Assembly: GCA_028690365.1 (NCBI GenBank)
Contig: JAQVBK010000004.1
Coordinates: 1-38,577 of the forward strand
Length of the DNA: 38,577 bases
Reading direction: 5' to 3'
DNA from: Candidatus Cloacimonadota bacterium
GTDB taxonomy: Bacteria > Cloacimonadota > Cloacimonadia > Cloacimonadales > JAQVBK01
Numbering within the stretch: the stretch's first letter is position 1; the number at the start of each line of letters is the position of its first letter. Positions 1,002-34,381 of this stretch are shown here, piece by piece. Under the pieces are notes generated by a model that saw only the letters and a list, made by a program, of their open reading frames with translations, searched no databases and was not told the DNA's origin. Both the position numbers and the translations under genes were made by a program.

Positions 1002-1009
1002 TTTGACTC

Positions 1010-1741
1010 CTATTTTCTTTCTAATAATAATGCCAAATCACGGGGAGTGAGAAATCTCCACATTCCTATAGGCAATTTTGACATCTTCAGCTTTCCTATC
1101 TGTAGTCTCTTTAATTCATGTACTGAGCTTCCTATAGTTTCAATCATTCTTCTTATCTGTCTGTTTCTGCCTTCGTATATTGTCATTTTCAAAACAGTTC
1201 TATTGTCCCTTCTTTCTTTCACAAAGACTTTGCATGGAAGTGTAATCTTTCCGTTAATCTCAACACCTTTTCTCAATAAATCAACAGAAGCATCAGAAAT
1301 AATTCCTTTACATACAACTTTATAGGTCTTGGGAATTTTGTTTTTAGGATGAATTATTTGCTGTGCAAAATCTCCATTATCTGTCAAAATAAGCATTCCC
1401 TCTGTTTGACTGTCTAATCTTCCAATAGCCATCATATTTGACCCAAAGTCAGGAATTAATGAAAAAATATTCTTTCTATTGTACTCATCTTTTTTTGTTA
1501 CAATGTAATTCTTTGGTTTGTTTATCATAATATAGATATTCTTACTTTTGACCTCAATGACTTTCCCATCTACTTCAATTGAGTCATTTTTTACATCTAC
1601 TATATATGACAAATCGTTTTGGATTTTTCCGTTTACTTTTACCCTTGATTGCTTAATTAAATCTTCAGCTTGTCTTCTTGAACAAATATTGCATAAAGCA
1701 ATAAATTTGTTTATTCTTATCAAATTTTTTTCATTATTCAT
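1010..1741 (-). CDS. rluB: 23S rRNA pseudouridine synthase, RluB/RsuA family
   Basis: This 243-residue protein has the standard two-domain layout. Residues 8-60 form an S4 RNA-binding domain (INKFIALCNICSRRQAEDLI). The catalytic domain carries GRLDSQTEGMLILT around residues 107-120, with Asp110 as the expected nucleophile. The family isomerises uridine to pseudouridine in rRNA. RluB, RluE, RluF and RsuA cannot be told apart with certainty by eye, but the S4 domain plus this length favours RluB or RsuA. It starts 4 nt after the lptE stop, and its own end carries the ribosome-binding site of ychF, so all three genes are probably translated from one mRNA. Confidence 0.9.
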   Translation of the reverse strand: MNNEKNLIRINKFIALCNICSRRQAEDLIKQSRVKVNGKIQNDLSYIVDVKNDSIEVDGKVIEVKSKNIYIMINKPKNYIVTKKDEYNRKNIFSLIPDFGSNMMAIGRLDSQTEGMLILTDNGDFAQQIIHPKNKIPKTYKVVCKGIISDASVDLLRKGVEINGKITLPCKVFVKERRDNRTVLKMTIYEGRNRQIRRMIETIGSSVHELKRLQIGKLKMSKLPIGMWRFLTPRDLALLLERK

Positions 1742-1745
1742 TTTT

Positions 1746-2243
1746 TTACCATTTTTCTAAAGTGTTTTCCATTATTTTTTTGAAAATATCTTCGAAGATT
1801 TCCTGTCTGGCCTCTTCTTCTGTTTTTATTTTTAAATCATCAGTTGAATTCGGATAGTATTTTTTTCTTATAATTGCGTTTTCCGCTTTCCATAGTGTCT
1901 GACTATTCACATTATCAAAAAAATCAATGTCGTATGCAATTGATACTTCGTATTCATCAACCGCTTCTTCAACGTTAAATGATACAATTTTATTTTCATA
2001 AGCTTTTATAACACCTGTTAAAATACAATCAACTTCAACAGAGGCTATTTTCAGACGAGAATCAATCAAGAATTGTCTGACTAAAGAATCGTTTAATTCT
2101 GATTCTATTTCATAAGTATCACTTTTGTTATCAAATATCTTGACATCAATTGTCCTTAAATGCGGATATGCACTCATATAAACAGAGTAGCTGCATGATA
2201 TAAGCATGCTTACGGTTATTAATATAGCTATTATTTTTTTCAT
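1746..2243 (-). CDS. lptE: LptE-like LPS-assembly lipoprotein
   Basis: This 165-residue protein has a type II signal peptide: residues 1-16 are hydrophobic and end LISC, with Cys17 as the lipidated residue. The mature part follows the LptE pattern of diderms outside Proteobacteria: YPHLRTIDVKIFDN, then SELNDSLVRQFLID, then a strand rich in VDCILTGVIKAYENKI, and LWKAEN near the end. LptE plugs the LptD barrel in the outer membrane and helps deliver lipopolysaccharide. The assignment rests on these motifs and the length, and is weaker than for the neighbouring enzymes. It is the first gene of the lptE-rluB-ychF operon. Its start lies 85 nt from the divergent HTH-EIIA gene. Confidence 0.7.
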   Translation of the reverse strand: MKKIIAILITVSMLISCSYSVYMSAYPHLRTIDVKIFDNKSDTYEIESELNDSLVRQFLIDSRLKIASVEVDCILTGVIKAYENKIVSFNVEEAVDEYEVSIAYDIDFFDNVNSQTLWKAENAIIRKKYYPNSTDDLKIKTEEEARQEIFEDIFKKIMENTLEKW

Positions 2244-2251
2244 GTATTTAC

Positions 2252-2265
2252 GCCAATTTTTTGGC
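2252..2265. promoter_or_regulatory. Short inverted repeat in the divergent lptE/HTH-EIIA promoter region
   Basis: The gap between the divergent starts at 2243 and 2329 contains GCCAA-TTTT-TTGGC, a 5-bp inverted repeat around four T. On the minus strand a TTGACA-like hexamer lies just upstream of it. It could be an operator for the DNA-binding gene beside it, or chance in AT-rich sequence. No convincing -10 box is placed. Confidence 0.25.
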
Positions 2266-2328
2266 TTTTAGTGTCAAGTACAAAGTATTTAACGTAAAAA
2301 AAATATCTATTCACTAAAAGGAGTTGTT

Positions 2329-2985
2329 ATGCCAAGAGAGTTGATTACACTAACGGAAGCTTCTAATTATCTCAAACTGAGTAAGAAGATTGTTACTGAT
2401 ATGATAGATCAGGGTGTATTCAGTCAGTTTCCTAAAGGTAAAACCTTTAGAGTAGACAAAAATGAGATAAATGAATGGCTTTCGAATCTTTCTGAGTCTC
2501 AGAATGAGCAGTTAGCCTTACGAAGAACTGCCTGCCGATTTATGGATTATTTTAGTACAGACTTCATTATGCTTGATTTCAAAGTAGATAACAAATATGA
2601 AGCTATTGGGGAAATGTCTAAACTTGCTAAAGATGTAAAGCTCGTAAGAAATCAAAGATGGCTTTATGAAGTTGTGGTAGCTAGAGAAGAACTCATTTCG
2701 ACTGCTATAGGCAATGGAGTAGCATTACTACACCCGCGCAGACTTCACCCTTCTAAAATTAAAAGTCCTTCTATACTTTTTGGTAGATCAACACACGGTG
2801 TAGATTTTGATTCTCCCGACAATAAACCGGTTAATTTATTTTTCATGCTTCTTCTACATAATGACAAACAACATTTGTTTTCTTTGTCTTATATTAGTAA
2901 ATTTTTATCAAACAGTGATAATCTACAACTACTCTTAGACTCCACTGATAAGAAAGAAATATTTGATAAATTAACAGCTGTATAA
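2329..2985 (+). CDS. HTH (excisionase/MerR-like) - PTS EIIA (PtsN-type) fusion regulator
   Basis: This is a 218-residue protein with two domains. Residues 4-54 (LITLTEASNYLKLSKKIVTD ... FRVDKNEINEWL) are an excisionase-family winged HTH. Residues 75-215 are a fructose/nitrogen-type EIIA domain. The motif TAIGNGVALLHPR places the phosphorylatable histidine at His135, equivalent to the active histidine of PtsN. Such a fusion suggests a DNA-binding protein whose activity depends on the phosphorylation state of a PTS phosphorelay rather than on sugar transport. No EI, HPr or permease gene is in the window. A strong AAAGGAG lies 8 nt before the ATG. It is transcribed divergently from lptE and converges with the DUF116 gene. 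Confidence 0.82.
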   Translation: MPRELITLTEASNYLKLSKKIVTDMIDQGVFSQFPKGKTFRVDKNEINEWLSNLSESQNEQLALRRTACRFMDYFSTDFIMLDFKVDNKYEAIGEMSKLAKDVKLVRNQRWLYEVVVAREELISTAIGNGVALLHPRRLHPSKIKSPSILFGRSTHGVDFDSPDNKPVNLFFMLLLHNDKQHLFSLSYISKFLSNSDNLQLLLDSTDKKEIFDKLTAV

Positions 2986-2990
2986 TTATA

Positions 2991-3758
2991 TCAAGAGACT
3001 TCTGTATTGGAGTCTCTGTTCTTTATAAAATTTTCAATTTTTTCTACAGAAACTCTTGTATTAAAACAAGGTCCTTCCGGTCTATCATTGAGAACTGAAT
3101 ATACCGGTATTGGAAATACATCTCTGACTCCAGAAAGCATATCTCTTTCGCATGCAACCGCAATTATCAATTCAGGTTTGTTTTCTTTGATTATTTTCCT
3201 AGCAATCGTACCACCGCTTGCAATAAATATTTTTAAACTGTACTTTTCCTTAAGTTTGCACAATTTGCAGATATCACACTTACCACAATGTATACAATTA
3301 TCAATATTATATGTTATTCTTATTTTGCAATCACTGTTTTGAAGACAATGAGGTAATAGAATTAATAGATTACATAATTTATTCACTCTATTTGTTTTTT
3401 TTACAATTTCATTGTTTATTATTAAAAATTCCCTAACTATAACTTCTCTTGATACATAGTGGAATAATTCTCGAATTAGAAGATTTACTGGCAGAAATAT
3501 TTTGAATAGTATAAATAAAACCGTCTTGTAGTTTCTAAAAGAACTTTTAGAAAAATTAAATATGAAAAATATCATTGCCCAGATGTAAAACAAATTTATA
3601 ACAATTAACGTTGAGATTGTCAGATTAACAGGAATAGAAGATAATTTAAAGTTATTGCTTAGGAGAAAGAATAGCAATAAAAAAAATAACACAATTTGTG
3701 TTAATATGATGTTTATAAGAAAATGCTTGGCTTCGCTAATTATTTGTTTAATGCCCAT
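2991..3758 (-). CDS. DUF116 membrane protein with cysteine cluster
   Basis: The product is 255 residues from the chosen start. The frame is open further, to an ATG at 3812, but that would overlap fmt by 65 nt; the ATG at 3758 gives an ordinary 11-nt overlap and reads MGIKQIISEAK. Two or three hydrophobic spans (around LTQIVLFFLLLFFLL and LIVINLFYIWAMIFFIF) precede a soluble C-terminal part. That part holds the cluster CxxCGKCDICKLC, then IIAVACERDMLSGV and NDRPEGPCFNTRVS. This is the DUF116 family, of unknown function. The spacing of cysteines suggests a metal or Fe-S site, which is inference. It follows def and fmt, an association I recall from other phyla. Confidence 0.78.
   Translation of the reverse strand: MGIKQIISEAKHFLINIILTQIVLFFLLLFFLLSNNFKLSSIPVNLTISTLIVINLFYIWAMIFFIFNFSKSSFRNYKTVLFILFKIFLPVNLLIRELFHYVSREVIVREFLIINNEIVKKTNRVNKLCNLLILLPHCLQNSDCKIRITYNIDNCIHCGKCDICKLCKLKEKYSLKIFIASGGTIARKIIKENKPELIIAVACERDMLSGVRDVFPIPVYSVLNDRPEGPCFNTRVSVEKIENFIKNRDSNTEVS
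2994..3017. terminator. Hairpin between convergent genes (weak terminator candidate)
   Basis: AGAGACT and AGTCTCT form a perfect 7-bp stem with a 10-nt loop, immediately after the HTH-EIIA stop and inside the last codons of the convergent DUF116 gene. The plus-strand 3' side is T-rich but not a clean T run, so termination is plausible rather than certain. Confidence 0.4.
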
Positions 3759-19042: not shown

Positions 19043-19336
19043 TTATCGTTTTTTCTTTAATACTTTATTGATAGATTTCTTCAACTGATTGATATTAACC
19101 GGTTTGATTACGGTTTCTTCTATGTTGTTTAAGGAAAAAGATCTTGTATCAATATCAAATCCACTCATCAGTATTATTGGAATTGCAATCTCTTCATTTG
19201 ATAGCTTCTCGGCAATCTGTAAACCACTCATTTGTGGCATAGTCAAGTCGGTAATTATTAAGTCGATGTCATTTTTCTCCGAAATCAGATAATCGAGTGC
19301 TGTTGATGGATTACTGAAAGTAGTAATTTTGAAACC
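19043..19336 (-). pseudogene. Frameshifted C-terminal receiver domain of the hybrid kinase
   Basis: This frame continues the second receiver of the hybrid kinase after a 1-nt loss near 19335. Read in this frame the residues are [19 protein letters not shown], then IDLIITDLTMPQMSG with the phospho-acceptor Asp, then IILMSGFD and ETVIKPVN with the conserved Lys. All receiver landmarks are intact, so either the deletion is recent or it is a sequence error. An ATG at 19246 could restart only a fragment lacking the acidic pocket. Confidence 0.8.
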
Positions 19337-21096
19337 ACATGGTTTAGAAAACTATGCAGTACTTTGGTAATCTGTTCTTCATCATCAATAATCACCAAAG
19401 ACTCGTTACCTTTACAGTCAATTATTGGCTCTTCTTTAATTTCTAACTCATTACTTTCAAATTCCGGTAAGAAAATGACAAAAGTAGTACCTTTATTGAT
19501 TTCACTTCTGACTAATATGTCGCCATGGTTTTTTGTCACAATTCCATAAACTACTGACAAACCAAGACCTGTACCTCCCGAATCATGTTTGGTTGTGAAA
19601 AAAGGATCAAATATTCTGGATTTGATTTCGAGGGGGATTCCTGCTCCATTATCAGAAACTGCGATGACTATAAAATTACCTGGTTTCAATTTAAGACCAT
19701 GTTCATCGATGTAATTTTTATCCACAACTTCTCTGTTCAATTTAATAAATATCTTTCCTTTGTTATCAGAAATTGCCTGTCCGGCATTTGTAATTATGTT
19801 GAGTATTATTTGATGAATCTGTACAGGGTCAGCCATAACAAAACCTTCAGTGGAAATTTCTGAATCAATTATTATTGAAGCAGGCAGAGACGCTCTCATA
19901 AATTTAATTATCTCTCTCAAAATTGGTTTAATTGACATTGGCAAAGCTTTCATTTCTGCCTGTCTGCTAAATTTTAGAATTTGTTGAACTAATTCTTTTG
20001 CCCGATTTCCGGCTTGAAGAATTTCCATGAAACTGTTCTTTATTTCTTTTTGGTCATCCAAACTCATCAAACCAATTTGAGAAAATCCGATAATTCCGGT
20101 TAGAATGTTATTAAAATCATGAGCTATACCACCAGCCAGAATACCAATTGTCTCTAGCTTTTGTGATTCTTCCATCTTTTTCATCATCTCAATTTCTTTC
20201 TGTCTTTGTTCGGCTATTTTTATTTCATTCAACTTTTTTGATGTTATATTCTGAAGAATTCCCATCACGTAATTAGGTTTACCATAGTCATCAAATTGAG
20301 TTTGTAAACGGCTGTGAACATATTTTATTGTTCCGTCTTTCAGTTTTAGGCGGTGTTCCAATTCATTAAGGTTTGCTTTTCGAAGACTATTACGGAAGCA
20401 CTGGTTTACTCTCTTTCTATCATCAGGATGGATTTGTTTTAGGAAACTGCGGTAACACGCCTGACAACTACCGGGTCTGAATCCGAAAATACGGTAGATC
20501 TGATCTGACCACAATGTAGTTCCGGTTATAATATTGTAATCCCAATGTCCGATATCTGCAATCTCTTCAGCTTCTTTCAGTTTCTGCTCAGATTGTTGAT
20601 AAGCGTTTCTCTCAAGTCTTAATTTTTCGACAGTTTCTTCAAGTTTTCTGCTCACACTGCCATCATACAATTTCAGAATTTCTTCAGTATCGTGTATATC
20701 ATTGATGTCTTTATTTTCATCAACTTTAATTTTTTCTATGTTTTCCTGGATTATTTTTAATAGTATTTCGGGTTTTTCCGGTTTAACAATAAATCTGTCT
20801 GCACCCAACCTCAGGGCAAGTTTTTCATCTTCTGCTTCTACAAAAGTAGCCGAGTAGAAAAGAAAAGGAATTTGACGCAGATTTTCAGAATGTTTAATTT
20901 CTCTGCATAGACGGTATCCATTCATCACCGGCATCATTATGTCAGATATTATAAGATCAGGTACATTATGTTCCAAGATATCGAGGGCTTGTTTTCCATT
21001 ATTTGCAGTGAGTACTTCATAACCTTGAGATTTTAGTAAAACAGCCATATATACTCTACTATTGTCATTGTCTTCTACTACAAGTATTTTTCTCAT
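19285..21096 (-). CDS. Hybrid histidine kinase: receiver-PAS-HisKA-HATPase (C-terminal receiver frameshifted)
   Basis: The 603-residue frame begins with a receiver (residues 1-120, Asp52 in [12 protein letters not shown], Lys105). A linker helix follows, then a PAS domain at ~173-289 ([20 protein letters not shown]). The HisKA motif is [14 protein letters not shown] with His326. The HATPase domain carries NAGQAI, DNGAGIP and [12 protein letters not shown]. It then enters a second receiver ([20 protein letters not shown]) and leaves frame near 19336, ending in an unrelated tail. The protein is cytoplasmic; its input is likely phosphotransfer to the N-terminal receiver plus PAS sensing. It lies downstream of the CheY-like gene and the periplasmic-sensor kinase, suggesting one phosphorelay. 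AGAGGTG precedes the ATG. Confidence 0.88.
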
Positions 21097-21157: not shown

Positions 21158-21529
21158 TCACTTAATAAAAAACGGCTCTATCTGAGAGATGAAAATATCG
21201 GGATCAATGGGTTTCTCTATATAGCCATCACATCCGGAAGATATGGCTTTTTCTTTATCACCAGGCATAGCGTAAGAAGTTACTGCAATAATTGGAATTT
21301 TTTCTGTGACAGGATTATTTTTTAGTCGGCTTGCCACTTCATATCCATCCATAACCGGTAGTTGTATATCGAGAAGAATAAGGTCAGGATAATCTTTTTC
21401 TGCCTTTTTTAAACCACTGTTTCCATTGTCTGCTTGTAACACGCAAAAGCCCTCTTTCTCCAACAGAAAAGTTAACAGATAGGTGTTCTGTGGATTATCT
21501 TCAATAACTAAAATTTTCTTATTCTGCAT
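21158..21529 (-). CDS. Stand-alone response regulator receiver (CheY/DivK-like)
   Basis: The 123-residue single-domain receiver has the acidic pair Glu10/Asp11, phospho-acceptor Asp54 (LILLDIQLPVMDG), Thr84 (IAVTSYAM) and Lys106 (YIEKPID). There is no output domain, so it probably acts as a phosphotransfer intermediate or by protein contact. Its start overlaps the end of the upstream sensor kinase by 11 nt, implying coupled translation. The hybrid kinase follows 61 nt downstream. Confidence 0.93.
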   Translation of the reverse strand: MQNKKILVIEDNPQNTYLLTFLLEKEGFCVLQADNGNSGLKKAEKDYPDLILLDIQLPVMDGYEVASRLKNNPVTEKIPIIAVTSYAMPGDKEKAISSGCDGYIEKPIDPDIFISQIEPFFIK

Positions 21530-24350
21530 CTTTCCTCTTTGTTTTTTCCTGGTTTAGTGGAATAGTGAAAGTAAAAGTACTTCCTGTACCTAATTTGCTT
21601 TCTACGCCAATCGTGCCGTGAAGCAGTTCGATGATTTTTCTACTTATCGACAGTCCTAATCCACTGCCTTCATACTCTCTGTTAGTTCCGGTTTTTAGCT
21701 GAGTGAATGGCTGAAACAATTTGGAAACATCTTCTGCCTTTATTCCGATTCCGCAATCAGAAACTGATGTTACAACATTTTCATTTGTCAGTTTTGCCGA
21801 TATTTTGACAACTCCTTTTTCAGAAAACTTAATGGCATTATTTATTAAGTTTATAATTACTTGCAATATTCTTCTTTCATCACACTGAATCATTTCCAAT
21901 TGCTCATCTATTTCGAAATCAAGTTTGATATTTTTTGCATCAGCTAAAGGATGAAGAGCGTTTACAGCCTGTAGAATTACATTTCGATAATTAACTTCGG
22001 TAATGGTTAAAACCAATTCACCTGCTTCAATTTTTGACATGTCAAGGACATCATTTATTAACGCTAGAAGATGCTGTGAGCTTCCTTTTACCATTTTCAA
22101 TTGTTTCTTTTGCTCGAAATTCAAAGGACCAGCCATTTCATTCAATAAAATACTATTAAAGCCAATTATTGAGTTCAGTGGAGTTCTTAACTCATGAGAC
22201 ATACTGGCCAAAAACGCACTTTTGGCATTGTTGGCTTTGATTGCAGAATCCTTGGCGGAATTAAGTTCTTCGTTTTTCTTTTCCAGATCAGACTGAGTTT
22301 CTATTAATTTATGTTCTGTCTGTTTTCTTATTCGTATTTCCCTGAAAAGCAATCTGTTCCAATATAAAATAACGGCAAGAATGAAAAGTGAGATAATTAC
22401 AATAGTAAAAATCAGAGAATAATCTGGTTCCAACTCATACCTGATTGAGATCCAGCGTTGATTTATGTTATCTCTTTCTTCTTCTCTGATGTCATCCAGA
22501 ATTTTCTGCAAAATGCTTTTAAGATGAGGGAGGTCATCTCTGACACCGAAAGAAATGTTGATGTCTATAGGAATTTTCCCGACAATTTTGTAATTCAGAA
22601 GTCTGTTTTTCTGCAGATAGTAGCTGGTAGAAAAGGCATCATTTACCAGAATGTCTGCTTTTCCGCTTTTCAAAAAAGTGAAAGCCTCTTCATTATTTTC
22701 AGCAATTATCAGTTTCATATCTTTGAAAACATCCTGAAAACCATGTTGCAGATATAGGTTTTGGATGAGGACAATTTTTTTGTTACGAATATCCTTCAGA
22801 CGGTTAATGTATGGTGTTTTTTCGTCTGCGAAGAAATAAACGGGAATTGTAAGATGAGGTTCAAGCAGGCTTGCTGTAAACGGATTTTCAGGAAGGTTAG
22901 GTACTGCAGTTATGAGATCTGCTTCTCCTGCTTTAAGTTTATTGGTCATTGTGTCTAATAGATCAGTGTTGATAACTGAGAAATCACAGCCGGTATATTT
23001 TTTGAAAATTTTCAGATACTCGAGAGTTATTCCCTGCAGATTATTGTTTTCATCAACATATTCGATGGGAGTCCAGTTTGAGTGGCTCAATACAGAGATC
23101 AACGGATGCTCAGAAATCCATTTTAACTCGTCTTCAGTAAAATTGAGAGTATTAGCACGAAAGGGTGATTCCCCGGTAATCCATTTTTGTTTTATTTTTT
23201 GGTGTTCTTCTTCGGTAATAGATTGAAGAGTTTTAGATATAATATCTTTGAGAATACCCCAGTCTTTTCTTATTCCGAAAGAGAAACCTTTAGTTTCTAT
23301 ATTAGCTTCAGCTGATATTTTAAGGTTTGATAGTCCTTCATTTCTAATTTTGTAGATGCTAGTGGCATAATCTCCTATCATAAGATCTGCTTGTCCGTAA
23401 GCAACAGCTTTCAGACCCTCCAGGATATCTTTAACCAAATATTTATTCATTTTTGGGTATTTTGACAGTATCAGTTCAGTTGAAGCATATCCTTCCACAA
23501 TTGCAGTTTTTAGATCAACAATTTCTTCCAGTGAATTGATTGCGGGAGAATCATCTTTGGTAATTATTACAAAAGGATATGTTTGATACGGAGGAGTAAA
23601 TATTAAATATTCAAGACGTTCAGGAGTTTCCGTTATTATCGGGCAAATATCCAATTCCTTGCGTTTAAATTTTTCAACAACCTCAGACCAGGTTGAATTT
23701 TTCTCGATTTCAAATCTTAAACCAGTTTTCTTACTTATTATCTTAAGATAATCAGAGGCTAATCCAGAATATTGATTAAACTTATCCAAAAACTCAAATG
23801 GAGGAAAATCTCTGTCAATACCAACCCTTATGAGAGAATTATTCTCAATCCATTCTTTTTCTTCAATGGTCAGGTTGGGCAACTGAGATATCTTTCTTTG
23901 AATAGTTTTGAATTCTTCCGATAAAAAATACAAAATAACTTCACTTAACCTGTTGTTTTGCTTCATTATACGAATGTTTTCATCAATACGATTTATCAAA
24001 GAGTTGGAATTTCCTGCAGATTTATTAAAGGCGAATTTCAAATCAATTGGATTAAAAACAAGAGGAGTTGCGTTTAGCTTGTATTTATCTTCATTTTGTT
24101 TTCCGAAGAGTCGATTGACAACTCCGGCATCAGCAACCCCTTTTCTGACTAAATCAAACACTTCTGCGTAACTATTTGTTTCTATGTAATCTGCATAAAT
24201 GTCAAAGCTTTTAGCAATTTCTTTAATTCCGCCGCTTCCATCTGTGTGGATGCTGCCTTTCATTACAGCAATTTTTCTATTATTCAGATCGAAAACAGAA
24301 GTAATCTCCTGATTGCGGGAATAGACAATTCCCCAATTGATAAATACCAC
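21519..24350 (-). CDS. Multi-binding-domain sensor histidine kinase (5' end frameshifted)
   Basis: This is a BvgS/EvgS-like sensor. The 943-residue frame holds the rest of a first SBP_bac_3 domain (to ~150), a second (~165-392, RVGIDRDFPPFEFLDKF) and a third (~403-635, SHSNWTPIEYVDENNNLQGI). One membrane span (~645-665), a coiled coil, HisKA (ASMSHELRTPLNSIIGF, His719) and a HATPase domain (INNAIKFSEKG, GSGLGLSISRK) follow. The periplasmic binding domains probably sense amino acids or similar small solutes. The apparent GTG start at 24350 is an artefact: the real N-terminus lies in another frame at 24437-24658. The order is sensor, receiver, hybrid kinase. Confidence 0.9.
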   Translation of the reverse strand: MVFINWGIVYSRNQEITSVFDLNNRKIAVMKGSIHTDGSGGIKEIAKSFDIYADYIETNSYAEVFDLVRKGVADAGVVNRLFGKQNEDKYKLNATPLVFNPIDLKFAFNKSAGNSNSLINRIDENIRIMKQNNRLSEVILYFLSEEFKTIQRKISQLPNLTIEEKEWIENNSLIRVGIDRDFPPFEFLDKFNQYSGLASDYLKIISKKTGLRFEIEKNSTWSEVVEKFKRKELDICPIITETPERLEYLIFTPPYQTYPFVIITKDDSPAINSLEEIVDLKTAIVEGYASTELILSKYPKMNKYLVKDILEGLKAVAYGQADLMIGDYATSIYKIRNEGLSNLKISAEANIETKGFSFGIRKDWGILKDIISKTLQSITEEEHQKIKQKWITGESPFRANTLNFTEDELKWISEHPLISVLSHSNWTPIEYVDENNNLQGITLEYLKIFKKYTGCDFSVINTDLLDTMTNKLKAGEADLITAVPNLPENPFTASLLEPHLTIPVYFFADEKTPYINRLKDIRNKKIVLIQNLYLQHGFQDVFKDMKLIIAENNEEAFTFLKSGKADILVNDAFSTSYYLQKNRLLNYKIVGKIPIDINISFGVRDDLPHLKSILQKILDDIREEERDNINQRWISIRYELEPDYSLIFTIVIISLFILAVILYWNRLLFREIRIRKQTEHKLIETQSDLEKKNEELNSAKDSAIKANNAKSAFLASMSHELRTPLNSIIGFNSILLNEMAGPLNFEQKKQLKMVKGSSQHLLALINDVLDMSKIEAGELVLTITEVNYRNVILQAVNALHPLADAKNIKLDFEIDEQLEMIQCDERRILQVIINLINNAIKFSEKGVVKISAKLTNENVVTSVSDCGIGIKAEDVSKLFQPFTQLKTGTNREYEGSGLGLSISRKIIELLHGTIGVESKLGTGSTFTFTIPLNQEKTKRKDAE

Positions 24351-24846: not shown

Positions 24847-27800
24847 ATGTTTCGAGAGTCTGTTTTTTGGATATCATTTTCAATCATAGTATTGATTTCA
24901 GCTTTTTTATCAGTAAAATATTTCCCTATTGTGATGTCATTTATTAACGTTGATATACCTTTGGATAGAAATGAGGTTATTGCTCTTGCTGATGGATTGG
25001 CAGATAAATTTGAATGGGAAACAGACGACTACAGAAGAACAATTTTCTTTTCAACAGATCATGACGTTCAATTCTATATTGAATTGGAAGGTGGGGGGAA
25101 AGCTGAGTTTAACCGTTTGATTAAAGAGAAACACTATTACCCTTTTCAATGGAAAGTAAGATTTTACAAAGAATTTGAAACAGCAGAAACAGACGTATAT
25201 TTTACTCCAATTGGAATTCCTTTCGGATTTCAGGAGAAGTTTCCTGAAACATATTTTTTGCCATCACTATCACCTGATTCTGCCAGAATAATTGCGGAGA
25301 CAGGTTCCACAGAAAATTGGAATATTGATCTGAAGAAATTCGAATTAATTGAAGAGAAAAAAAATCAGGTTGCCTCAGGTAGAATTGACCATACCTTTAT
25401 TTATAAGAAGAATGATTTTTCTTATGGAGAAGCTGAATACAGAATTTCCCTGACTGTGAGCGGTAATCGTTTTTCGGGATTATTACAGAATTTAAAATTG
25501 CCGGAAGCATTCTATCGCAGATATAAAGAAATGCGTTCGGCTAATGAAACTATAGCTACTACAGCAACTATTTCTATTGCTGTATTTTATGGAATGTTAG
25601 GCATTGTGGTTGGTCTGTTTTTTCTCTTAAAAACACATTCGTTGCTCTGGAAGCAAGGATTAATTTGGGGAGGGATAATTTCTCTATTGTCTTTTATCTC
25701 CGGATTTAATTATTTTCCATTAAGTTGGATGTGGTATGATACGGCAATTTCACAAAACAGTTTTGTTATTCATCAAATCATTCAGCAATTCATAAATTCT
25801 CTGTTAGATTTTCTACTGATTTCTACAACTTTTATGGTGGCTGAGGGTCTTACCCGAAAAGCATTTCCCAATCATGTCCAATTGTGGAAAACCTGGGATA
25901 AAGATACCGGGAGTTCATTGCGGATTCTAGGGAATACAATTGGAGGCTATTTTACCGCCGTAATTGATATTTTGTTTATTTTGATTTTTTATCTTATAAC
26001 CGAGAGATATTTAAAATGGTGGAATCCAGCTTCTCTGTCTACAAATCCAAATTCAATTGCTACAGCATTTCCCTGGTTCTCCGCTATAGCGGATTCTTTA
26101 CATGCCGGTTTTTGGGAGGAGTGCTTATTCCGTGCAATTCCGATTGCAGGGGCAATTGTTTTAGGAGAAAAATACAACCGGCGAACTCTCTTTTTTGTTT
26201 CTGCTCTAATTTTGCAGGCATTGATATTTGGAGCCGGTCACGCTAATTATGCTGCTCAGCCTGCATATGCCAGGGTAATTGAACTTATTTTGCCTTCACT
26301 TTATTTTGCCTATCTCTACATCAGGTTTGGGTTGCTGACTGCCATCATTACCCATTTTGCGGTGGATGCAATTCTCATGTCTATGCCTCTCTGGGTTACA
26401 AATTACGAGGGAATCTGGATTCAACGGATGCTATTTTTACTACTCTTCCTGTTGCCTGTTTTGATAGTAATTTTGCTAAGATTGAAAGCGAAAAAGTGGA
26501 ATGAAGTTCCTGAAGAATCATTAAACAAAAACTGGCTTCCTAAAATCAGAATGACCTTTAACAAAAATATTTCAATAGAACATAAAATAAGATTCAAACA
26601 GCATCGCTTAAAATATCTGATTGTGTCAGGAATTGCCGGTTTCCTGGTGTTATTATTTCTGGGGAAATTTACTATAATCACAGATCCAGTCACTGTTGAT
26701 AAAAAGGATATTGAAACATTTGCTCACGAATATCTTAAGGAACAGGGCATTAAGCTTTCATCTGATTGGAATAAAAACATCAGTTTCGAAATAACAGCCG
26801 GTCAGGCAGATAAATACATCTGGAGAGAGTGGGGCAGAGACGTTTACAGGAAGTTAGTCGGTAGTTACCTTACCCCGACAAAATGGCAAGTACGCTTTAC
26901 AAATCCCAAAGCTACAGTGGAAGAAAGAGCAGAGGAATACAACTTTTTTTTCCGAAATGATGGAAAGTTAACCGGTTTCAAGCACAATCTTCCTGAAGAG
27001 CTAGAGGGCGTTTTTTTGGAACAGAAAGAAGCTGAAAAACTTTGTCATGATTTTGTCGAGACTTGGTTTAACATAACTTTATCAGAATACAAAGAATTGT
27101 CAATTGAAGCAGTTATGCGACCAGCACGACGGGACTGGATATTTGTATATGCAGATACTTTATCTGAGCTTACTTTTGATAATCAACTTCAGGTGAAAAT
27201 TTGTATTGCTGGTGACAAAGTGATTTCATATGAAAAATTTATCAAGACACCGGAATTATGGCAAAGAGAATACACTAATACATCGAAATCAGCTAACATT
27301 ATAAAATCACTTATGTCGGTGATTTTTATGCTCATTTTTTTTGCTTTGTTAATTGCGGGAGTAATTCTTGGTCATACACAAAAAATCTCAGGCGAAAATT
27401 TCTTAACTATTTTTGCAATTCTAGTTATCTTGCAGAGTTTTGTGTTCTTGATTAGTTTTGAAACATCTACCGCTGATTTTTCTACTTCTGAGCCTTATAA
27501 TAGTCAACTCTTCCGCTTAATAATTGCATCTGTATTAAAAATAATTTTTAGTTCATTAGTAATTGGTCTGATTCATGCATTCAACAAAAATTACTTTTCC
27601 ACAAACAAGGGACTCAGTGGAATCCAAAGAAAACAGAATATTTCCGTCGCGATTTTTTCTGCTCTTTTTATTGCTGGATGTATTTCACTGTTTAAATTTT
27701 TAAAACCAGAAATGCTGCCTGCATTGGGGGGGGTCAATGGAATAGATTCTTCTGCACCAATTCTTTTCATCATAGCAGATTCTTTGGTATTATTCCTGAC

Positions 27801-28209
27801 TATCAGTGCTGTTATCCAGTTGTTTTTCATTTCTCTTGAACTGATATCGGGCTATTTTGCAGGAGGACGTGTTTTGCGATATTTGCTCACAGGGATATTA
27901 AGTATAACCTTTTTTGCAAATTTTCTGGAGATAATGGATTTCACAGGGATTTTCTTCTGGTTGATTTCTGCATTTATAAGTATTCTGATTTTTACTTTGT
28001 ATTTTGAGAAGGTGTTGAGATATTTCCTGCCTCAGATTAGTTTAGTAATTGCAATAGTGATATCAGTAGAATTAATTATAAAAATATTTCAGAAATCATA
28101 CAATGCATTTTTACCGGCAGCAGTTGTATCTATTCTGTTAATTGTGGCATCGGGATTCTTTCTGTCAGAAAAATACATAAAGAACAATTACAATGAGGAG
28201 GAATCATAG
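24847..28209 (+). CDS. Giant CPBP-family intramembrane protease with duplicated extracytoplasmic domain
   Basis: The 1120-residue protein starts at the ATG 24847, 3 nt after GGAGGT; an upstream TTG in frame is not needed. A first membrane span is followed by ectodomain A (~35-230) and a multi-span block carrying the CPBP (glutamic protease) motifs: FWEECLFR with Glu424, Glu425 and Arg429; FGAGHANY with His465; and THFAVDA with His503 and Asp507. Another span leads to ectodomain B (~610-805), clearly homologous to A, and a second multi-span block with no protease motif. CPBP enzymes include CAAX prenyl proteases and bacterial relatives of mostly unknown substrate. It is the first gene of an operon with a histidine kinase and an NtrC-type regulator. 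Confidence 0.85.
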   Translation: MFRESVFWISFSIIVLISAFLSVKYFPIVMSFINVDIPLDRNEVIALADGLADKFEWETDDYRRTIFFSTDHDVQFYIELEGGGKAEFNRLIKEKHYYPFQWKVRFYKEFETAETDVYFTPIGIPFGFQEKFPETYFLPSLSPDSARIIAETGSTENWNIDLKKFELIEEKKNQVASGRIDHTFIYKKNDFSYGEAEYRISLTVSGNRFSGLLQNLKLPEAFYRRYKEMRSANETIATTATISIAVFYGMLGIVVGLFFLLKTHSLLWKQGLIWGGIISLLSFISGFNYFPLSWMWYDTAISQNSFVIHQIIQQFINSLLDFLLISTTFMVAEGLTRKAFPNHVQLWKTWDKDTGSSLRILGNTIGGYFTAVIDILFILIFYLITERYLKWWNPASLSTNPNSIATAFPWFSAIADSLHAGFWEECLFRAIPIAGAIVLGEKYNRRTLFFVSALILQALIFGAGHANYAAQPAYARVIELILPSLYFAYLYIRFGLLTAIITHFAVDAILMSMPLWVTNYEGIWIQRMLFLLLFLLPVLIVILLRLKAKKWNEVPEESLNKNWLPKIRMTFNKNISIEHKIRFKQHRLKYLIVSGIAGFLVLLFLGKFTIITDPVTVDKKDIETFAHEYLKEQGIKLSSDWNKNISFEITAGQADKYIWREWGRDVYRKLVGSYLTPTKWQVRFTNPKATVEERAEEYNFFFRNDGKLTGFKHNLPEELEGVFLEQKEAEKLCHDFVETWFNITLSEYKELSIEAVMRPARRDWIFVYADTLSELTFDNQLQVKICIAGDKVISYEKFIKTPELWQREYTNTSKSANIIKSLMSVIFMLIFFALLIAGVILGHTQKISGENFLTIFAILVILQSFVFLISFETSTADFSTSEPYNSQLFRLIIASVLKIIFSSLVIGLIHAFNKNYFSTNKGLSGIQRKQNISVAIFSALFIAGCISLFKFLKPEMLPALGGVNGIDSSAPILFIIADSLVLFLTISAVIQLFFISLELISGYFAGGRVLRYLLTGILSITFFANFLEIMDFTGIFFWLISAFISILIFTLYFEKVLRYFLPQISLVIAIVISVELIIKIFQKSYNAFLPAAVVSILLIVASGFFLSEKYIKNNYNEEES

Positions 28210-28376
28210 AAGAGAATTATAAGTTAAATAGGGAGTTATTAAAACTTGCTCAGAGGAATTTAAGTCGATTTGATTTCTTAAGAGAAATCTCTGTACTGAT
28301 TTCTGATGAACTCAAGTCTGAAGCTGTAGAACTGAGATTAAGTGAAAGGGATTTTGATTATATTTGGGAGTACAAT
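28206..28376 (+). other. Coding-like 5' extension of the GAF histidine kinase lacking a canonical start codon
   Basis: The kinase frame stays open upstream of the ATG at 28377 back to a TGA at 28194. The 57 extra codons read like kinase sequence: LLKLAQRNLSRFDFLREISV, then DELKSEAVELRLSERDF, which would complete the first GAF-like domain. A strong GAGGAGG (28195-28201) lies 4 nt before an ATA at 28206, exactly where an ATG would be expected, overlapping the CPBP stop. No ATG, GTG or TTG occurs in frame in this stretch. Confidence 0.65.
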
Positions 28377-29927
28377 ATGACAAATGATAACTCCAGATTG
28401 AAACAGACATCTTTCTCAGTTATAGAAGGAACAAAATACCCCTATCGTTTAAACGGAGATAGCAAAGAATTGATAATCAGAGAAATGTTTCAGGAAAGAT
28501 TCAATCCTGAACTGAAATACAAATATTATAATCGGGCAGTAATAATTACAGACTCAGAGAGTTTATTTCACTTAAAAACCAATCAGGGGAAAATAATAAT
28601 TAGTAATTTAAGTGAATCAATAATGTACAAATCTGCAGTAATAATGAGTCTGATAATTAATGAGAAAGACTATGGTATATTGATTTGTTATTCAAATAGC
28701 AAACAGCAATTTTCAGTTGTTGAAAAAGATTTTTTTGAAGATCTTGCCGAGACCTTCAGCACTTCTATTGCTTTTAGACGAGCTCAATATGCTCTCAGAG
28801 AACGTATAAAAGAACTAACTTGTATTCAAAGCATCAACCAGCTGATTCAAAACCAGGCACTGACTTTAACTGAATTGATGGATGAATTACCCAAGCTTAT
28901 TCCATCTGCATTTCAATTTCCTGAACTTATCCAGAGTTCAATTGTTATATGTGATCAATGTGTTGAAACAGAACAGTTTCTTGAAACCAGTGAACAATTG
29001 GTTGCTCCGATCAATTGTTCAGGAAGAATTACGGGGAAAATAACAATCGGATATTTATCTAAGGAAAAAGAATCTGATCCCATTTTCTTTATTCCCGAAG
29101 AAAGAGATGTTTTGGAGATGATAGTCCAGAAAATAGGTCTCATAGTGGACAGGATTCTCTTTAAAGAAGAAAAAGAAAAACTTGAAAGACAGCTTCGGCA
29201 TGCAGATAGATTGGCAACTATTGGAACTCTTTCAGCGGGAGTAGCTCATGAGCTGAATGAACCTTTGGCAAACATCCTTGGTTTTGCTCAGTTAAGTCAG
29301 AAATATCTGATGAAACTTTTGAGTGAGAATCAGGAAAATGATGAAATCAAGATAAAACTATCTGACTTGAATCAGTTCAATGATGATACAGGAAGAATAA
29401 TCAAATCATCGCTTTATGCCAGAGATATAGTAAAAAAACTACTGATATTTTCACATCAGATGCCGACGAAAAAGAAAATGGTTAATCCCAATGTGGCAAT
29501 AGAAGATGCACTCTTTTTTCTTGAATCCAGATGTGCTAAGTTGAATATCAGAATAAAAAAGAAATTTGCCTATAATCTACCAGAAATTTATGTGGATCCT
29601 TCACAGATTAATCAGGTAATAATTAATCTTGTGGTTAATTCAATTCATGCTATGCCTGATGGGGGAGAGGTAATTATCAGTACTTATGTAGATAAAAATA
29701 AGGTGATTATTGAAGTAAAGGATAATGGAACCGGAATGACTGAAGAAATAAAGAAACAGATTTTTCTTCCTTTTTTTACAACTAAAGATATTGGTGAAGG
29801 TACAGGTTTGGGATTAGCTGTTGTACATGGGATTGTAAAAGCTCACAATGCAGAAATAAAAGTAAAAAGTGAACCGGAGAAAGGAACTGTTTTCTATGTA
29901 AAATTTCCGTTCCGGATAAGCAGATAA
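28377..29927 (+). CDS. GAF-type histidine kinase (NtrB-like), partner of the sigma-54 activator
   Basis: From ATG 28377 the protein is 516 residues. Residues 1-135 look like the rest of a GAF-like domain. A second GAF-like domain (~140-262, starting RERIKELTCIQSINQL) follows, then a coiled linker. The HisKA motif is SAGVAHELNEPLANILG with His291. HATPase boxes are NLVVNSIHAM, DNGTGMTEE and GTGLGLAVVHG. No membrane span is seen, so sensing is cytosolic. GGGAG lies 6 nt before this ATG and allows initiation here, but coding potential extends 57 codons upstream to an ATA. The kinase precedes the NtrC-type regulator by 19 nt, a classic kinase-regulator pair. Confidence 0.9.
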   Translation: MTNDNSRLKQTSFSVIEGTKYPYRLNGDSKELIIREMFQERFNPELKYKYYNRAVIITDSESLFHLKTNQGKIIISNLSESIMYKSAVIMSLIINEKDYGILICYSNSKQQFSVVEKDFFEDLAETFSTSIAFRRAQYALRERIKELTCIQSINQLIQNQALTLTELMDELPKLIPSAFQFPELIQSSIVICDQCVETEQFLETSEQLVAPINCSGRITGKITIGYLSKEKESDPIFFIPEERDVLEMIVQKIGLIVDRILFKEEKEKLERQLRHADRLATIGTLSAGVAHELNEPLANILGFAQLSQKYLMKLLSENQENDEIKIKLSDLNQFNDDTGRIIKSSLYARDIVKKLLIFSHQMPTKKKMVNPNVAIEDALFFLESRCAKLNIRIKKKFAYNLPEIYVDPSQINQVIINLVVNSIHAMPDGGEVIISTYVDKNKVIIEVKDNGTGMTEEIKKQIFLPFFTTKDIGEGTGLGLAVVHGIVKAHNAEIKVKSEPEKGTVFYVKFPFRISR

Positions 29928-29946: not shown

Positions 29947-31269
29947 ATGAGCAGAACAGAAAAAATATTATGTGTGGATGATTCTACTGATACACTGGAA
30001 CTTTTGCGAAGAAATCTGGAGTTGAACGGATTTACGGTGTTTACTGTATCAAGTGTTGAGGAAGCGATGAGACTGCTGGAAAATACTGAAGTTGATATTG
30101 TAATTACAGATATGAAAATGCCCAAGATCAGCGGTATTGAATTGGTAAAGTATGTTAGTGAGAATTACAGAAACACAGGGATAATGATGATAACCGGTTT
30201 TGCAACTATAGAGGGAGCTGTTTCGGCCATGAAGACGGGAGCGGATGAATACTTAGCAAAACCTTTTACAGATGAAGAATTACAGACAGCTCTGGACAAA
30301 ATTTTGCAGAAAGTGAGAGATAGAAAGATGATTGCCGGTAATTCAGAGAAAAGCGGATTTCACGGAATAATCGGTAAATCACATGAAATGCAGAAGGTCT
30401 TTTCTATTGTAAAAAAAGCTGCAATCTCCAACGCAAATGTTTTAATTACAGGTGAGAGCGGAACCGGAAAGGAGTTGGTGGCAAGAGCAATTCATTATCA
30501 AAGTCTGAGAAGCAAGTCGCCATTTATTCCGGTAAACTGTGCAGCTATTCCTGAGGAACTTCTGGAGAGCGAACTATTCGGCTATGTTAAAGGAGCGTTT
30601 ACCGGTGCCGATTCTACACGTGCCGGTTTTTTCCAAACTGCAGATGGAGGAACCATTTTTCTTGATGAAGTAAGTGAAATGAGTCATGCTATGCAGGCAA
30701 AATTGCTCAGAGTTATTCAAGAACGTGAGATAATGATGGTTGGTTCCAGAAAACCCATTTCGGTTGATATTCGGGTTGTGTGTGCAACAAATAAAGATTT
30801 GCATAGTCTGGTATCGAAAAAATTATTTCGAGAAGATTTGTTCTATCGTTTAAATGTCATAAATATTGATTTACCACCGTTAAGAAAACGTGAGGATGAT
30901 ATCATTGAACTTCTAACGTTCTTTCTGCATAAGTTCTCTCGTGAAATCGGCAGGGATGACTTAATAATTAGTGAATCCGCCCTCAATATTCTCAAAAGTT
31001 ATCACTGGCCGGGGAATGTAAGAGAGTTGGAAAATCTTATGCAGAGGCTCACAGTAATGGCAGAAGATTCTTCAGTTGAAATTGCCGATCTTCCGACATA
31101 TATGAGATCATCGTTTTATCGTCCTAACGGACTGGATAGAAAATTGGAAGAAGTAGAAATGGAATATATCAACAGTGTGTTGTCTTCTGTGAATGGAAAT
31201 AAGAGCAAAGCAGCTCAGATTTTAGGAATTGACCGGAAAACATTAAGAACAAAACTGAAAGAAGTATAA
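29947..31269 (+). CDS. NtrC-family sigma-54-dependent response regulator
   Basis: The 440-residue regulator has three domains. The receiver (1-120) carries Asp55 in IVITDMKMP and Lys105. The AAA+ sigma-54 activation domain (~138-370) has Walker A GESGTGKE at 169-176, the sigma-54-contacting GAFTGA loop at 216-221, the segment GGTIFLDEVSEM and the arginine-rich LFREDLFYRLNVI. A Fis-type HTH closes the protein (NKSKAAQILGIDRKTLR). It should activate sigma-54 promoters when phosphorylated by the upstream kinase. I found no clear sigma-54 promoter in the window, so its targets are unknown. AGAAGGAAAAA precedes the ATG. Confidence 0.95.
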   Translation: MSRTEKILCVDDSTDTLELLRRNLELNGFTVFTVSSVEEAMRLLENTEVDIVITDMKMPKISGIELVKYVSENYRNTGIMMITGFATIEGAVSAMKTGADEYLAKPFTDEELQTALDKILQKVRDRKMIAGNSEKSGFHGIIGKSHEMQKVFSIVKKAAISNANVLITGESGTGKELVARAIHYQSLRSKSPFIPVNCAAIPEELLESELFGYVKGAFTGADSTRAGFFQTADGGTIFLDEVSEMSHAMQAKLLRVIQEREIMMVGSRKPISVDIRVVCATNKDLHSLVSKKLFREDLFYRLNVINIDLPPLRKREDDIIELLTFFLHKFSREIGRDDLIISESALNILKSYHWPGNVRELENLMQRLTVMAEDSSVEIADLPTYMRSSFYRPNGLDRKLEEVEMEYINSVLSSVNGNKSKAAQILGIDRKTLRTKLKEV

Positions 31270-31297: not shown

Positions 31298-33085
31298 CTA
31301 TTTCTTTATCGTGAATGACAATCCTACATAATAGTCACTGCTATTTTCGTTGATGTATCCACCTAGATCAATACTTACATTTTCAGAATGTTTGTAACCA
31401 ATTCCACCGGTATAGACTTTGTTGGTTCTGATGTTCTCACTTTTGCTTTTGTGTGACAATAGATAATTCTCATTATCATGGTTTTCTTCGATGTCTCCGT
31501 TTCCGTAATAAGTAATATCTGAGAAAGGCAAGTTTTCAACATATTTGTATGCTGTTTCACTATAATATTTTTGATAAGTGAATATTGTGCCGATTCTAAA
31601 AATGAAGTTTCTGATACCAAATCCATCACTCTGCGTCATATCACTGGTAGGTATTCTGAATTCCAAAGCAACCGGAGCACGAAAATCAGTAGTCTTACTG
31701 ATAAATTCCTGATCAGCCGTAGTTTTTTGGGATCTGTGTACCATGTATTCGTCTCCACTGTCAAATTCTTCTCCATACTGTAACAGCTCATTACGGGTTC
31801 TGGTGTATATATAATCAGTGGTTCTGTTTTTTCTGGTAAAAGTGTAATATCCGGCAAATCCAAAATCTGCGAATTCATTCAATGGCAGATTGATTTTTCC
31901 GTACAAATCAAAGTGAACACCTGTAAAGTCTCCATCGTTTTTTTCGGATATTCTTGAACTCTTCATATATTCAGAATCATTTGAGTCATTGAAGATGTCA
32001 TTAATCATGTGTACAGAGTAAAGGCTGTCAGTTCGGGTGTTATCATAAACACCACCAATAAGTCCAAAGCCTATTCCGGTACTCCAGAAACCGTCATTAA
32101 TACGATTATTGCCTTTCTGGAAGATTCTCTTGGCGTGCATCATTAAGAATAAATCATTTTCAGAAATTTCAGTAACGTAACTATAGTATTCCTTAACATT
32201 GCCGGTTTCTTCTAGAGTGTCTCTCACGATTACATCTACATACTCTCCTACATATTTGTCATCTCTGTCAGTTTTTGAATTTAGGTATCTGTTGAAACCA
32301 CCATCCAAACGAATTTCATATTCATTATTGAGCAATTCGTATGGTTTCATGGCTGAAAGCAATATTTTAAAATTATTACTCTCATGGGTAAGATTGAAAT
32401 CTCCTCTTTCATGAATTCTGCGATAATAATTGCTTTCACCCGCATTATATAATTCTATCCAGTATTCTTTACTGTTACCATAAAGTCCTTCAAGAAATCC
32501 ATCTGAATCATTGTCTCCATACATATTTGCTGAATCATCAGATACATATTTTTCTTTAGAGAAGTGCAGTTTGGCACCAAAAGTGTATTCATTCCAAACG
32601 TAATTGTTGTTGAATATAAATTCTCCATTGCAATTATCATCAACGTAGTCAATTTCTTTTGTATAGCTAACTCTTCTGATATCAAAGATACCATCATTGT
32701 TATTATCAATATAATCTGTTTGATAGTCTTCTGATTCTGGAGTATTGCTTGTTTTAAGAGCTCTTGTTCTATAGAGTAATGCGTGTTTGAGATTTTCCAC
32801 AAATGGGTTTTCAAAAGCAATGCCAAAGGGGAATTCTTCCAATAACTGCTGTTTGGAAATCATGTTAAATTCATCATAGGTTTTATAATATTGAAAATTA
32901 AAATCAGACAAACTAGTGAAAAAATAGATACCGGGCATAAACCTTAGTTCAATCGGGTCGTAGACTTTTTCCCATTCACCTTCAAAAATTGTTCCTGTTG
33001 CAGCGCTGCGCATGGAAGCAGGTTCGGTAGCGAATATGTTTAGAAGTAATAATGCCATGATTATTGTTAAAGTATATTTTCTCAT
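31298..33085 (-). CDS. Predicted outer-membrane beta-barrel protein with Ca-loop-like motifs
   Basis: The 595-residue protein has a signal peptide (about residues 1-20). The rest is rich in aromatic residues and alternating polar/hydrophobic strands and ends YVGLSFTIKK, resembling a terminal barrel strand. Three loops match DxDxDGxxD/E: DNNNDGIFD (127-135), DDNCNGEF (149-156) and DNDSDGFLE (191-199), as in EF-hand or dockerin calcium sites. The function is unknown. It may be a surface or transport barrel working with the lipoprotein encoded 9 nt upstream. AAGGAGG lies just before the ATG. Confidence 0.65.
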   Translation of the reverse strand: MRKYTLTIIMALLLLNIFATEPASMRSAATGTIFEGEWEKVYDPIELRFMPGIYFFTSLSDFNFQYYKTYDEFNMISKQQLLEEFPFGIAFENPFVENLKHALLYRTRALKTSNTPESEDYQTDYIDNNNDGIFDIRRVSYTKEIDYVDDNCNGEFIFNNNYVWNEYTFGAKLHFSKEKYVSDDSANMYGDNDSDGFLEGLYGNSKEYWIELYNAGESNYYRRIHERGDFNLTHESNNFKILLSAMKPYELLNNEYEIRLDGGFNRYLNSKTDRDDKYVGEYVDVIVRDTLEETGNVKEYYSYVTEISENDLFLMMHAKRIFQKGNNRINDGFWSTGIGFGLIGGVYDNTRTDSLYSVHMINDIFNDSNDSEYMKSSRISEKNDGDFTGVHFDLYGKINLPLNEFADFGFAGYYTFTRKNRTTDYIYTRTRNELLQYGEEFDSGDEYMVHRSQKTTADQEFISKTTDFRAPVALEFRIPTSDMTQSDGFGIRNFIFRIGTIFTYQKYYSETAYKYVENLPFSDITYYGNGDIEENHDNENYLLSHKSKSENIRTNKVYTGGIGYKHSENVSIDLGGYINENSSDYYVGLSFTIKK

Positions 33086-33094
33086 TGATCCTCC

Positions 33095-34381
33095 TTATCT
33101 GGATACTGTAAAATTGAAATTACCAAAAGAACCGTAGTCGTTATTATCCCAGCTTACAAGAACATCATTCTGTTGATTTATGACTATTCCCTCAATGCCG
33201 CCATCACCGTAGCTGTCATAACATCTTACAGAATATGAACCTGGCTCCAGCATCAAAACTTCTGTCTGTATTTGCCCTGACGAACTGAATGTCTTATCGT
33301 AAGCAAAGATATTCTGACCGGTTTGTTCATTTCTGACATTCCAGCTTGCTTCACTGGGATAGCTATCACAATGAACCGTTATAGTGATTTGAAGATTTGT
33401 AATTTCACTCACTATTACAGAAGCAATTTCTGAATAATCGCTGTATTCTCCGCTGTATGAATTGAAAGCTCTTATTCTGTAGTAGAGTGTATCTCCCAAA
33501 GCATAGGCAAGAGTATCTTCATCAGTATAAGTTGTTGTATTCATCTCAACCTGGGCAATCTGAACAAAGTAGCGCAGATTTTTAGCTCGTTCGATAAAGA
33601 AAGCTGTTTCCAGAGTGGAATTGTCTGTCCAACTTAGGTCGATTTTCATATCTGAATTACAAACTGCCGACAAGTTGACAGGAGTATTCAGGACAAAATC
33701 AGCCGAGCTAAAGGAAGAGCTGAAAATAGTGTTGAGTTCCGGCATATCTGTGTTTACATATTTCAATCCATATCTGTAGTACATATTATCTTCAAGGTTG
33801 CTCCACTGATAAGTGATTGTATTAGCTGCCAGAGTAAGTGTGTCGATTGTACTAAAAGAATAACTATTAACGGATTCTTCTCTGATAAGCAAGATGCTTT
33901 TCTCCAGATCTGCTCTGTCTGTCCAGGTAAGTGCAACCAGGTTAGTGTCGAGACCGTTAATAGTCAACTCAGAAGGTTCCTGCCAATTTGCTGTTTTTAC
34001 TGTCATTATATCTGTTTCAGACATCAGATTTTTGCGGAAAGTGACCAGTTTGTATTCATAAATTGTGTCCATCTGAAGGAGTGTATCACGGCAAGCATTT
34101 ACCTGAGGATCATCCCAGGTCCCAATGAGATCATCGTTACGATAAAGTTTGTAAACATGGAAATCTTTTTCGGTCGAAATTGTCCATTCCAAATTAACCA
34201 TATCAGTGCCAATCTTTCCGGAATCATATCCGACCTGACAACTGCCCTGAGCTAAATAAAACTCACTTTTGAAGATTGCTTTAGAAGTTACCTGATCAAA
34301 ATCTTGTTGATTGATATCCATAGGACTATCACAACTGATAATGAACAAGGCAAACAAGCAAAGCAGTAATAAGTTTTTCAT
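33095..34381 (-). CDS. Fibronectin type III lipoprotein with C-terminal DSYGDG module
   Basis: The 428-residue lipoprotein has a signal peptide ending FIISC, with Cys17 lipidated. Three Fn3-like domains follow, at about 45-130, 135-235 and 240-325 (VNLEWTISTEKDFHVYKLYR; LVALTWTDRADLEKSILLI; IDLSWTDNSTLETAFFIERA). The C-terminal ~100 residues match a module seen in secreted proteins of marine Bacteroidota, with CDSYPSEASWNV and later SYSVRCYDSYGDGG. That module usually sits on exported, often surface, proteins. A binding or adhesin role is plausible but not shown. It is co-transcribed with the beta-barrel gene. The ribosome-binding site is GGGAGGT. Confidence 0.78.
   Translation of the reverse strand: MKNLLLLCLFALFIISCDSPMDINQQDFDQVTSKAIFKSEFYLAQGSCQVGYDSGKIGTDMVNLEWTISTEKDFHVYKLYRNDDLIGTWDDPQVNACRDTLLQMDTIYEYKLVTFRKNLMSETDIMTVKTANWQEPSELTINGLDTNLVALTWTDRADLEKSILLIREESVNSYSFSTIDTLTLAANTITYQWSNLEDNMYYRYGLKYVNTDMPELNTIFSSSFSSADFVLNTPVNLSAVCNSDMKIDLSWTDNSTLETAFFIERAKNLRYFVQIAQVEMNTTTYTDEDTLAYALGDTLYYRIRAFNSYSGEYSDYSEIASVIVSEITNLQITITVHCDSYPSEASWNVRNEQTGQNIFAYDKTFSSSGQIQTEVLMLEPGSYSVRCYDSYGDGGIEGIVINQQNDVLVSWDNNDYGSFGNFNFTVSR

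Follow-up and report, generated by a model that had tools for sequence, protein, structure and literature searches.

A tandem CPBP-type membrane protein with one degenerate half, found in Cloacimonadota and several other bacterial lineages

Gene and domain organization

Within the window, i.e. the whole 38,577-nucleotide stretch of Candidatus Cloacimonadota contig JAQVBK010000004.1 that was analyzed, a plus-strand open reading frame at positions 24847-28209 encodes a tandem CPBP-type protein of 1120 amino acids. It begins with the ATG at 24847 and ends with the stop codon at 28207-28209. This is a real gene, present as a single copy in the genome, and its start is backed by homologues, as the N-terminal MFRESVFW aligns with their own MFRK..FW starts. 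Directly 5' of the ATG lies a GGAGG. The protein matched no Pfam family and a single NCBIfam entry, the latter far under that entry's cut-off. A sequence search of PDB chains gave nothing relevant, and a search of viral contigs gave no match.

Taken together, the AlphaFold model, the profile comparisons and the alignment of homologues divide the chain into two units, all on the plus strand. The first consists of a model-predicted transmembrane (TM) helix (residues 5-29, positions 24859-24933), ectodomain A (residues 36-219, 24952-25503), which appears YcdB/YcdC (DUF4901)-like as judged by profile comparison, the Pfam matches of relatives and the model, and membrane block 1 (residues 220-548, 25504-26490), a set of nine helices found to be CPBP/Rce1-like from its motifs, the Pfam matches of relatives and the model. 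The catalytic motifs of this block are intact, and were located by alignment as EECLFR, an EExxxR motif (residues 424-429, 26116-26133), F461xxxH465 (26227-26241) and H503xxxD507 (26353-26367). A linker that is probably cytoplasmic, as indicated by the model and its composition (residues 549-584, 26491-26598), leads to the second unit, with another model-predicted TM helix (residues 585-605, 26599-26661), ectodomain B (residues 612-802, 26680-27252), homologous to A by profile comparison, and membrane block 2 (residues 803-1112, 27253-28182), which profile comparison and aligned columns identify as a copy of block 1 that has degenerated and lost the catalytic residues. The linker is basic, with 9 K/R against 4 D/E, and this charge bias suggests that each unit begins and ends in the cytoplasm, with its ectodomain in the periplasm. 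An N-in/C-in topology also fits the C-terminal phosphatase of the SpoIIE fusions described below. We thus infer an inner-membrane protein with twenty helices and two periplasmic ectodomains.

The repeated domain of YcdB/YcdC (PF16244, DUF4901) was matched above cut-off in ectodomain B of two relatives (residues 633-786 in L005, and in L064 with 696-785 as the best stretch) and weakly in ectodomain A of a third (L011). Other members had matches under the cut-off, and the 1120-residue protein had none. While these matches in A or B of several members make up the likeness to YcdB/YcdC, the ectodomains of the family differ in being of distinct A and B types and in sharing a W.VR ... (K/L)PE ... 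PE.(F/W).R pattern. An internal repeat within a single ectodomain was unsupported (A1 vs A2 3.9%, B1 vs B2 6.1%).

Duplication of the unit

The original prediction took this to be a giant protein of the CPBP type in which an ectodomain-plus-bundle unit occurs twice, with ectodomain B alignable to A and the active-site motifs kept in the first bundle, and proposed structure prediction and self-alignment of the halves as the way to check it. All of this was borne out. The N-terminal half of the protein alone matched its C-terminal half with 22% identity over 232 residues (blastp, E 8e-7). With 15 homologues included, ectodomain A (residues 25-240) matched ectodomain B (605-820) at 99.8% probability and E 1.2e-27 over 196 columns, and with 45 homologues at 100% and E 1.6e-38 (hhalign), while the comparison of whole halves with the same 45 reached E 4e-51 across 495 columns. 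The two membrane blocks, for which the match was weak (42.5%) with just 15 sequences, aligned with 45 homologues over 289 columns (98.4% probability, E 7e-15, score 108). Reversed sequences scored 22-26 and 40 block-shuffled ones at most 32.3, which excludes a chance likeness of hydrophobic composition. Landmarks common to both halves include N288/N869, P291/P872, Y297/F878, T299/T880 and P409/P971.

In the AlphaFold model of the full chain (pLDDT 84.5, pTM 0.79), the order of elements is the same in both halves, namely a TM helix, an alpha/beta ectodomain and nine TM helices. Since the sequence repeat covers both parts and the element order matches, the duplicated unit is the whole of TM helix, ectodomain of ~180 residues and nine-TM bundle, and not the ectodomain only. 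Foldseek searches at E<=1e-3 found no match for the whole chain in PDB and viral libraries, nor for the C-terminal block in PDB, where no CPBP structure was met. Short, weak matches to the BLIP-like entries 3e2k and 4hbr give a mere hint for the ectodomain.

A tree built from 132 units places every one of the 56 C-terminal units in a single clade (0.981), which points to a duplication that took place once, in an ancestor, and to a dead half kept for a long time since. N-terminal and single units make up a second clade (0.94) and the phosphatase units a third (0.979), implying that the phosphatase and single-unit forms belong on the N-terminal side of the old duplication.

One intact and one degenerate bundle

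The CPBP/Rce1 family is defined by the motifs EExxxR, F/WxxxH and HxxxD/N (PMC6588880). All residues concerned are kept in block 1: E424, E425, R429, H465 and H503 were present in 45 out of 45 full-length homologues, and position 507 is D in 43 and N in two of these. Out of 54 N-terminal units, 53 read EERHHD or EERHHN. Four relatives (L011, L014, L064 and L113) also have a match to PF02517 (Rce1-like) in block 1 that exceeds the curated cut-off, and the block is well conserved, with a mean pairwise identity of 0.44 and 60 invariant columns. Half 1 is, judging from this conservation, most likely a working glutamic intramembrane protease. In one tandem member (L094, positions 95-3211, minus strand), the catalytic residues are gone from both halves, the N-terminal unit reading TMANAG.

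EECLFR, F461xxxH465 and H503xxxD507 are confined to block 1. Block 2 has no catalytic residues, neither in the 1120-residue protein nor in the corresponding alignment columns across the family (S/I, T/A, L/M etc.), and it drifts fast, with a mean pairwise identity of 0.21 and three invariant columns. The PF02517 profile gave zero matches to the C-terminal units scanned. With neither a PDB nor a PF02517 match, the CPBP nature of block 2 rests on its homology to block 1, and this homology together with the lost motifs makes it most likely a pseudoprotease copy rather than a second protease.

Distribution and architectures of the family

Full-length homologues of about 1,100-1,190 residues were found in records whose titles name Cloacimonadota, Neomarinimicrobiota, Caldithrix, KSB1, Oligoflexia/Bdellovibrio and one Janthinobacterium MAG, while Eisenbacteria contributed a partial one. 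By phylum, as named after these titles, genomes with any match numbered 18 out of 125 in Cloacimonadota, 70 of 199 in Marinimicrobia, 41 of 82 in KSB1/Calditrichota (many with the phosphatase form only), 6 of 192 for Bdellovibrio, 11 of 47 in Eisenbacteria and 1 of 8 in the phylum of locus L012. The class to which the Janthinobacterium MAG belongs had a match in two of 185 genomes, one of these being short and weak. The family is common in several uncultured phyla. We found no paper in the open-access literature linking CPBP proteins with SpoIIE, with PepSY/YcdB or with this architecture, so this conserved tandem, half-dead CPBP family is, as originally suggested, apparently undescribed.

Three architectures were found, namely the tandem form with an active followed by a dead unit (two subfamilies), a single unit joined to SpoIIE, and a single active unit. 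The latter is represented by one protein of 582 residues (L113, positions 1456-3201, minus strand), which retains the complete catalytic set and has no second half encoded after it; the next gene is a putative M16-type peptidase gene. A 600-residue candidate for a second such protein (L169) was discounted, as it runs to the end of the available stretch.

Fusions of ectodomain, bundle and SpoIIE/PP2C domain occurred as 21 distinct proteins of 802-878 residues in the KSB1/Calditrichota phylum (loci L059-L063, L116-L118, L127-L131, L134-L142 and L145). The first Glu is absent from 20 out of the 21; the exception, L138, keeps EER and has lost the histidines. None of the 21 retains H465, and a His at position 503 is found in L063 only. 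One fusion, L137, is the only one to exceed the PF02517 cut-off, indicating that the bundle of these phosphatases is CPBP-like. Active-site-dead units in this position suggest a signaling role for the ectodomain-bundle unit.

These fusions also bear on the possibility that the tandem proteins have a CPBP fold with a non-proteolytic job, e.g. as a chaperone or lipoprotein-modifying partner, in the manner of LnsB or APH-1, or in regulating a kinase, as SpdC does. Bacteria have several CPBP proteins of this kind (PMC7387801; PMC5854430), and the loss of the catalytic set in half 2, in the SpoIIE fusions and throughout the tandem protein of L094 agrees with it. We nevertheless consider it improbable for the family, as the catalytic set of half 1 is complete in 53 out of 54 units, whereas LnsB and SpdC are without key ones.

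Genomic neighborhood

Immediately downstream of the tandem gene are a GAF/HisKA histidine kinase gene (28203-29927, plus strand; its 5' end is probably 28203 or 28206) and the NtrC-type response regulator gene paired with it (29947-31269, plus strand). Read backward, the frame of the kinase stays open as far as 28197, so that it overlaps the stop codon of the protease gene (GGAGGAATCATAG). The first ~30 residues of the kinase, an N-terminal extension, are conserved, and homologous kinases start near ATC 28203 or ATA 28206. Across 28197-28377, where the homologues begin, the kinase has no standard start codon, which suggests either the use of an ATC or ATA start or a base change or assembly error there. 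The kinase probably begins at a non-ATG codon that follows a GGAGGA and falls within the stop region of the protease gene.

The overlap makes an operon of protease and kinase likely at this locus, and to this extent the original prediction of an operon with a two-component system probably holds. It does not extend further, as no kinase or regulator like this pair was found in any other family locus examined (blastp E<=1e-8), although some of these loci carry 1.5 kb of flank or less. The neighbors of the family vary by lineage and are mostly unrelated, and none is conserved among the family loci in a way that names a substrate. The proposed homologue search thus recovered the expected full-length proteins, but without conserved kinase and regulator neighbors. 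Among the 125 genomes of the phylum, the kinase was present in 35 and the protease in 18, and both occurred together in seven (5.0 expected, Fisher p 0.27). The protease was missing from 28 of the 35 kinase genomes, and in the other six genomes with both, the two are on different contigs. The regulator adjoins the kinase in 14 out of 14 loci examined, and the pair is conserved in about a quarter of the sampled Cloacimonadota, independently of the protease. The probable protease-kinase operon is a local event, with the kinase and regulator standing outside the conserved family.

A two-component link as a conserved module was consequently rejected by both the neighbor comparison and the co-occurrence counts, and with it the suggestion of an envelope-sensing or regulated-proteolysis module comprising kinase and regulator. 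That the GAF-kinase/NtrC-type pair next door should have the protease as its sensor or switch, with regulated proteolysis feeding the two-component system, would fit the overlapping frames, the conserved N-terminal extension of the kinase, and the example of SpdC, a CPBP protein able to control a kinase (PMC5854430). We regard this as very improbable, as the pair is absent from the other family loci and mostly occurs in genomes without the protease, with no significant co-occurrence; moreover, it leaves the family itself unexplained.

Other genes surround the locus. Upstream, a divergent kinase gene with repeated extracellular solute-binding (SBP_bac_3) domains (21519-24350, minus strand) is followed by genes for a stand-alone receiver (21158-21529) and a receiver-PAS-kinase (19285-21096). 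Downstream, 31298-34381 on the minus strand encodes two secreted-looking proteins of 595 and 428 residues, the second lipoprotein-like, with no Pfam match above cut-off.

Proposed function

We propose, with moderate confidence, that the tandem protein is an inner-membrane glutamic intramembrane protease of the CPBP superfamily, fused to a pseudoprotease half and carrying ectodomains for substrate selection or sensing. Its twenty helices trace back to the tandem duplication of a unit in which a single TM helix precedes a YcdB/PepSY-like, presumably periplasmic domain and a CPBP bundle of nine helices. Half 1 would cleave a membrane-embedded or lipid-anchored substrate, the dead half would be a partner within the same chain that presents substrate or regulates, the role proposed for APH-1 alongside presenilin, and the ectodomains would choose the substrate or gate proteolysis in response to a signal from the envelope. 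The best support for such presenting or gating, and for sensing, comes from the phosphatase fusions, where the dead unit occupies the place of a sensor-transducer. More tentatively, a hitherto unrecognized envelope-sensing unit of YcdB/PepSY-like domain and CPBP bundle may have met three fates, as an active protease, as a dead partner half in the same chain, and as an inactive transducer that drives a PP2C phosphatase in the cytoplasm, in which case the dead half of the tandem protein would sense or present and thereby switch the active half.

The main rival holds that the protein is a processing or sorting protease without regulation, which would act like a myxosortase or remove signals or lipoprotein tags, with the ectodomains as substrate-binding arms and the dead half structural. 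MrtX, a CPBP enzyme, has been experimentally shown to be a sorting protease (PMC11980579), the 60 invariant columns of block 1 fit a constant substrate, and the varied, mostly unrelated neighbors include no conserved regulator. On the other hand, a sorting tag or paired substrate gene was not met in a non-systematic look, MrtX is described without large ectodomains, and the ectodomain-bundle unit is reused in the phosphatases. We therefore find this rival rather unlikely.

The proposed protease with its pseudoprotease half shares with CPBP/type II CAAX proteases (PF02517; Rce1, MrtX, MroQ) the placement of EExxxR, F/WxxxH and HxxxD/N in successive TM helices, as seen in block 1. Those enzymes are, however, one short bundle, as compared with ~1,100 residues, large ectodomains and a second, dead copy here. 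Dead CPBP bundles can do useful work, as in APH-1 and LnsB (PMC7387801). Block 2 resembles APH-1 of gamma-secretase by analogy only, as a non-catalytic CPBP fold beside a protease; APH-1 is a separate subunit partnering an unrelated aspartyl protease, whereas the dead copy here is a duplicate within one chain. Another parallel is SpdC (LyrA) of Staphylococcus aureus, which is CPBP-like, is without key catalytic residues and inhibits the WalK kinase (PMC5854430; PMC7387801). Like the dead units fused to phosphatases, it is an inactive CPBP-like protein controlling a signaling enzyme, but it is a single bundle with no large ectodomain and targets a separate kinase.

As for the phosphatases themselves, the proteins of 802-878 residues have a full C-terminal SpoIIE domain, like SpoIIE/RsbU-type PP2C phosphatases (PF07228) with membrane input, and differ from these in that the input half is the family ectodomain with an inactivated CPBP-type bundle. 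They suggest that a CPBP bundle can pass a transmembrane signal after losing catalysis. The control of an active protease by a pseudoprotease sister has been studied in gamma-secretase and rhomboids, and a chain that joins an active copy of an intramembrane protease to a dead one would offer a natural model of it within a single polypeptide. Lastly, a second SpoIIE-like gene, encoding about 690 residues, adjoins the fusion gene in L061 and L063, with GAF domains in the former.
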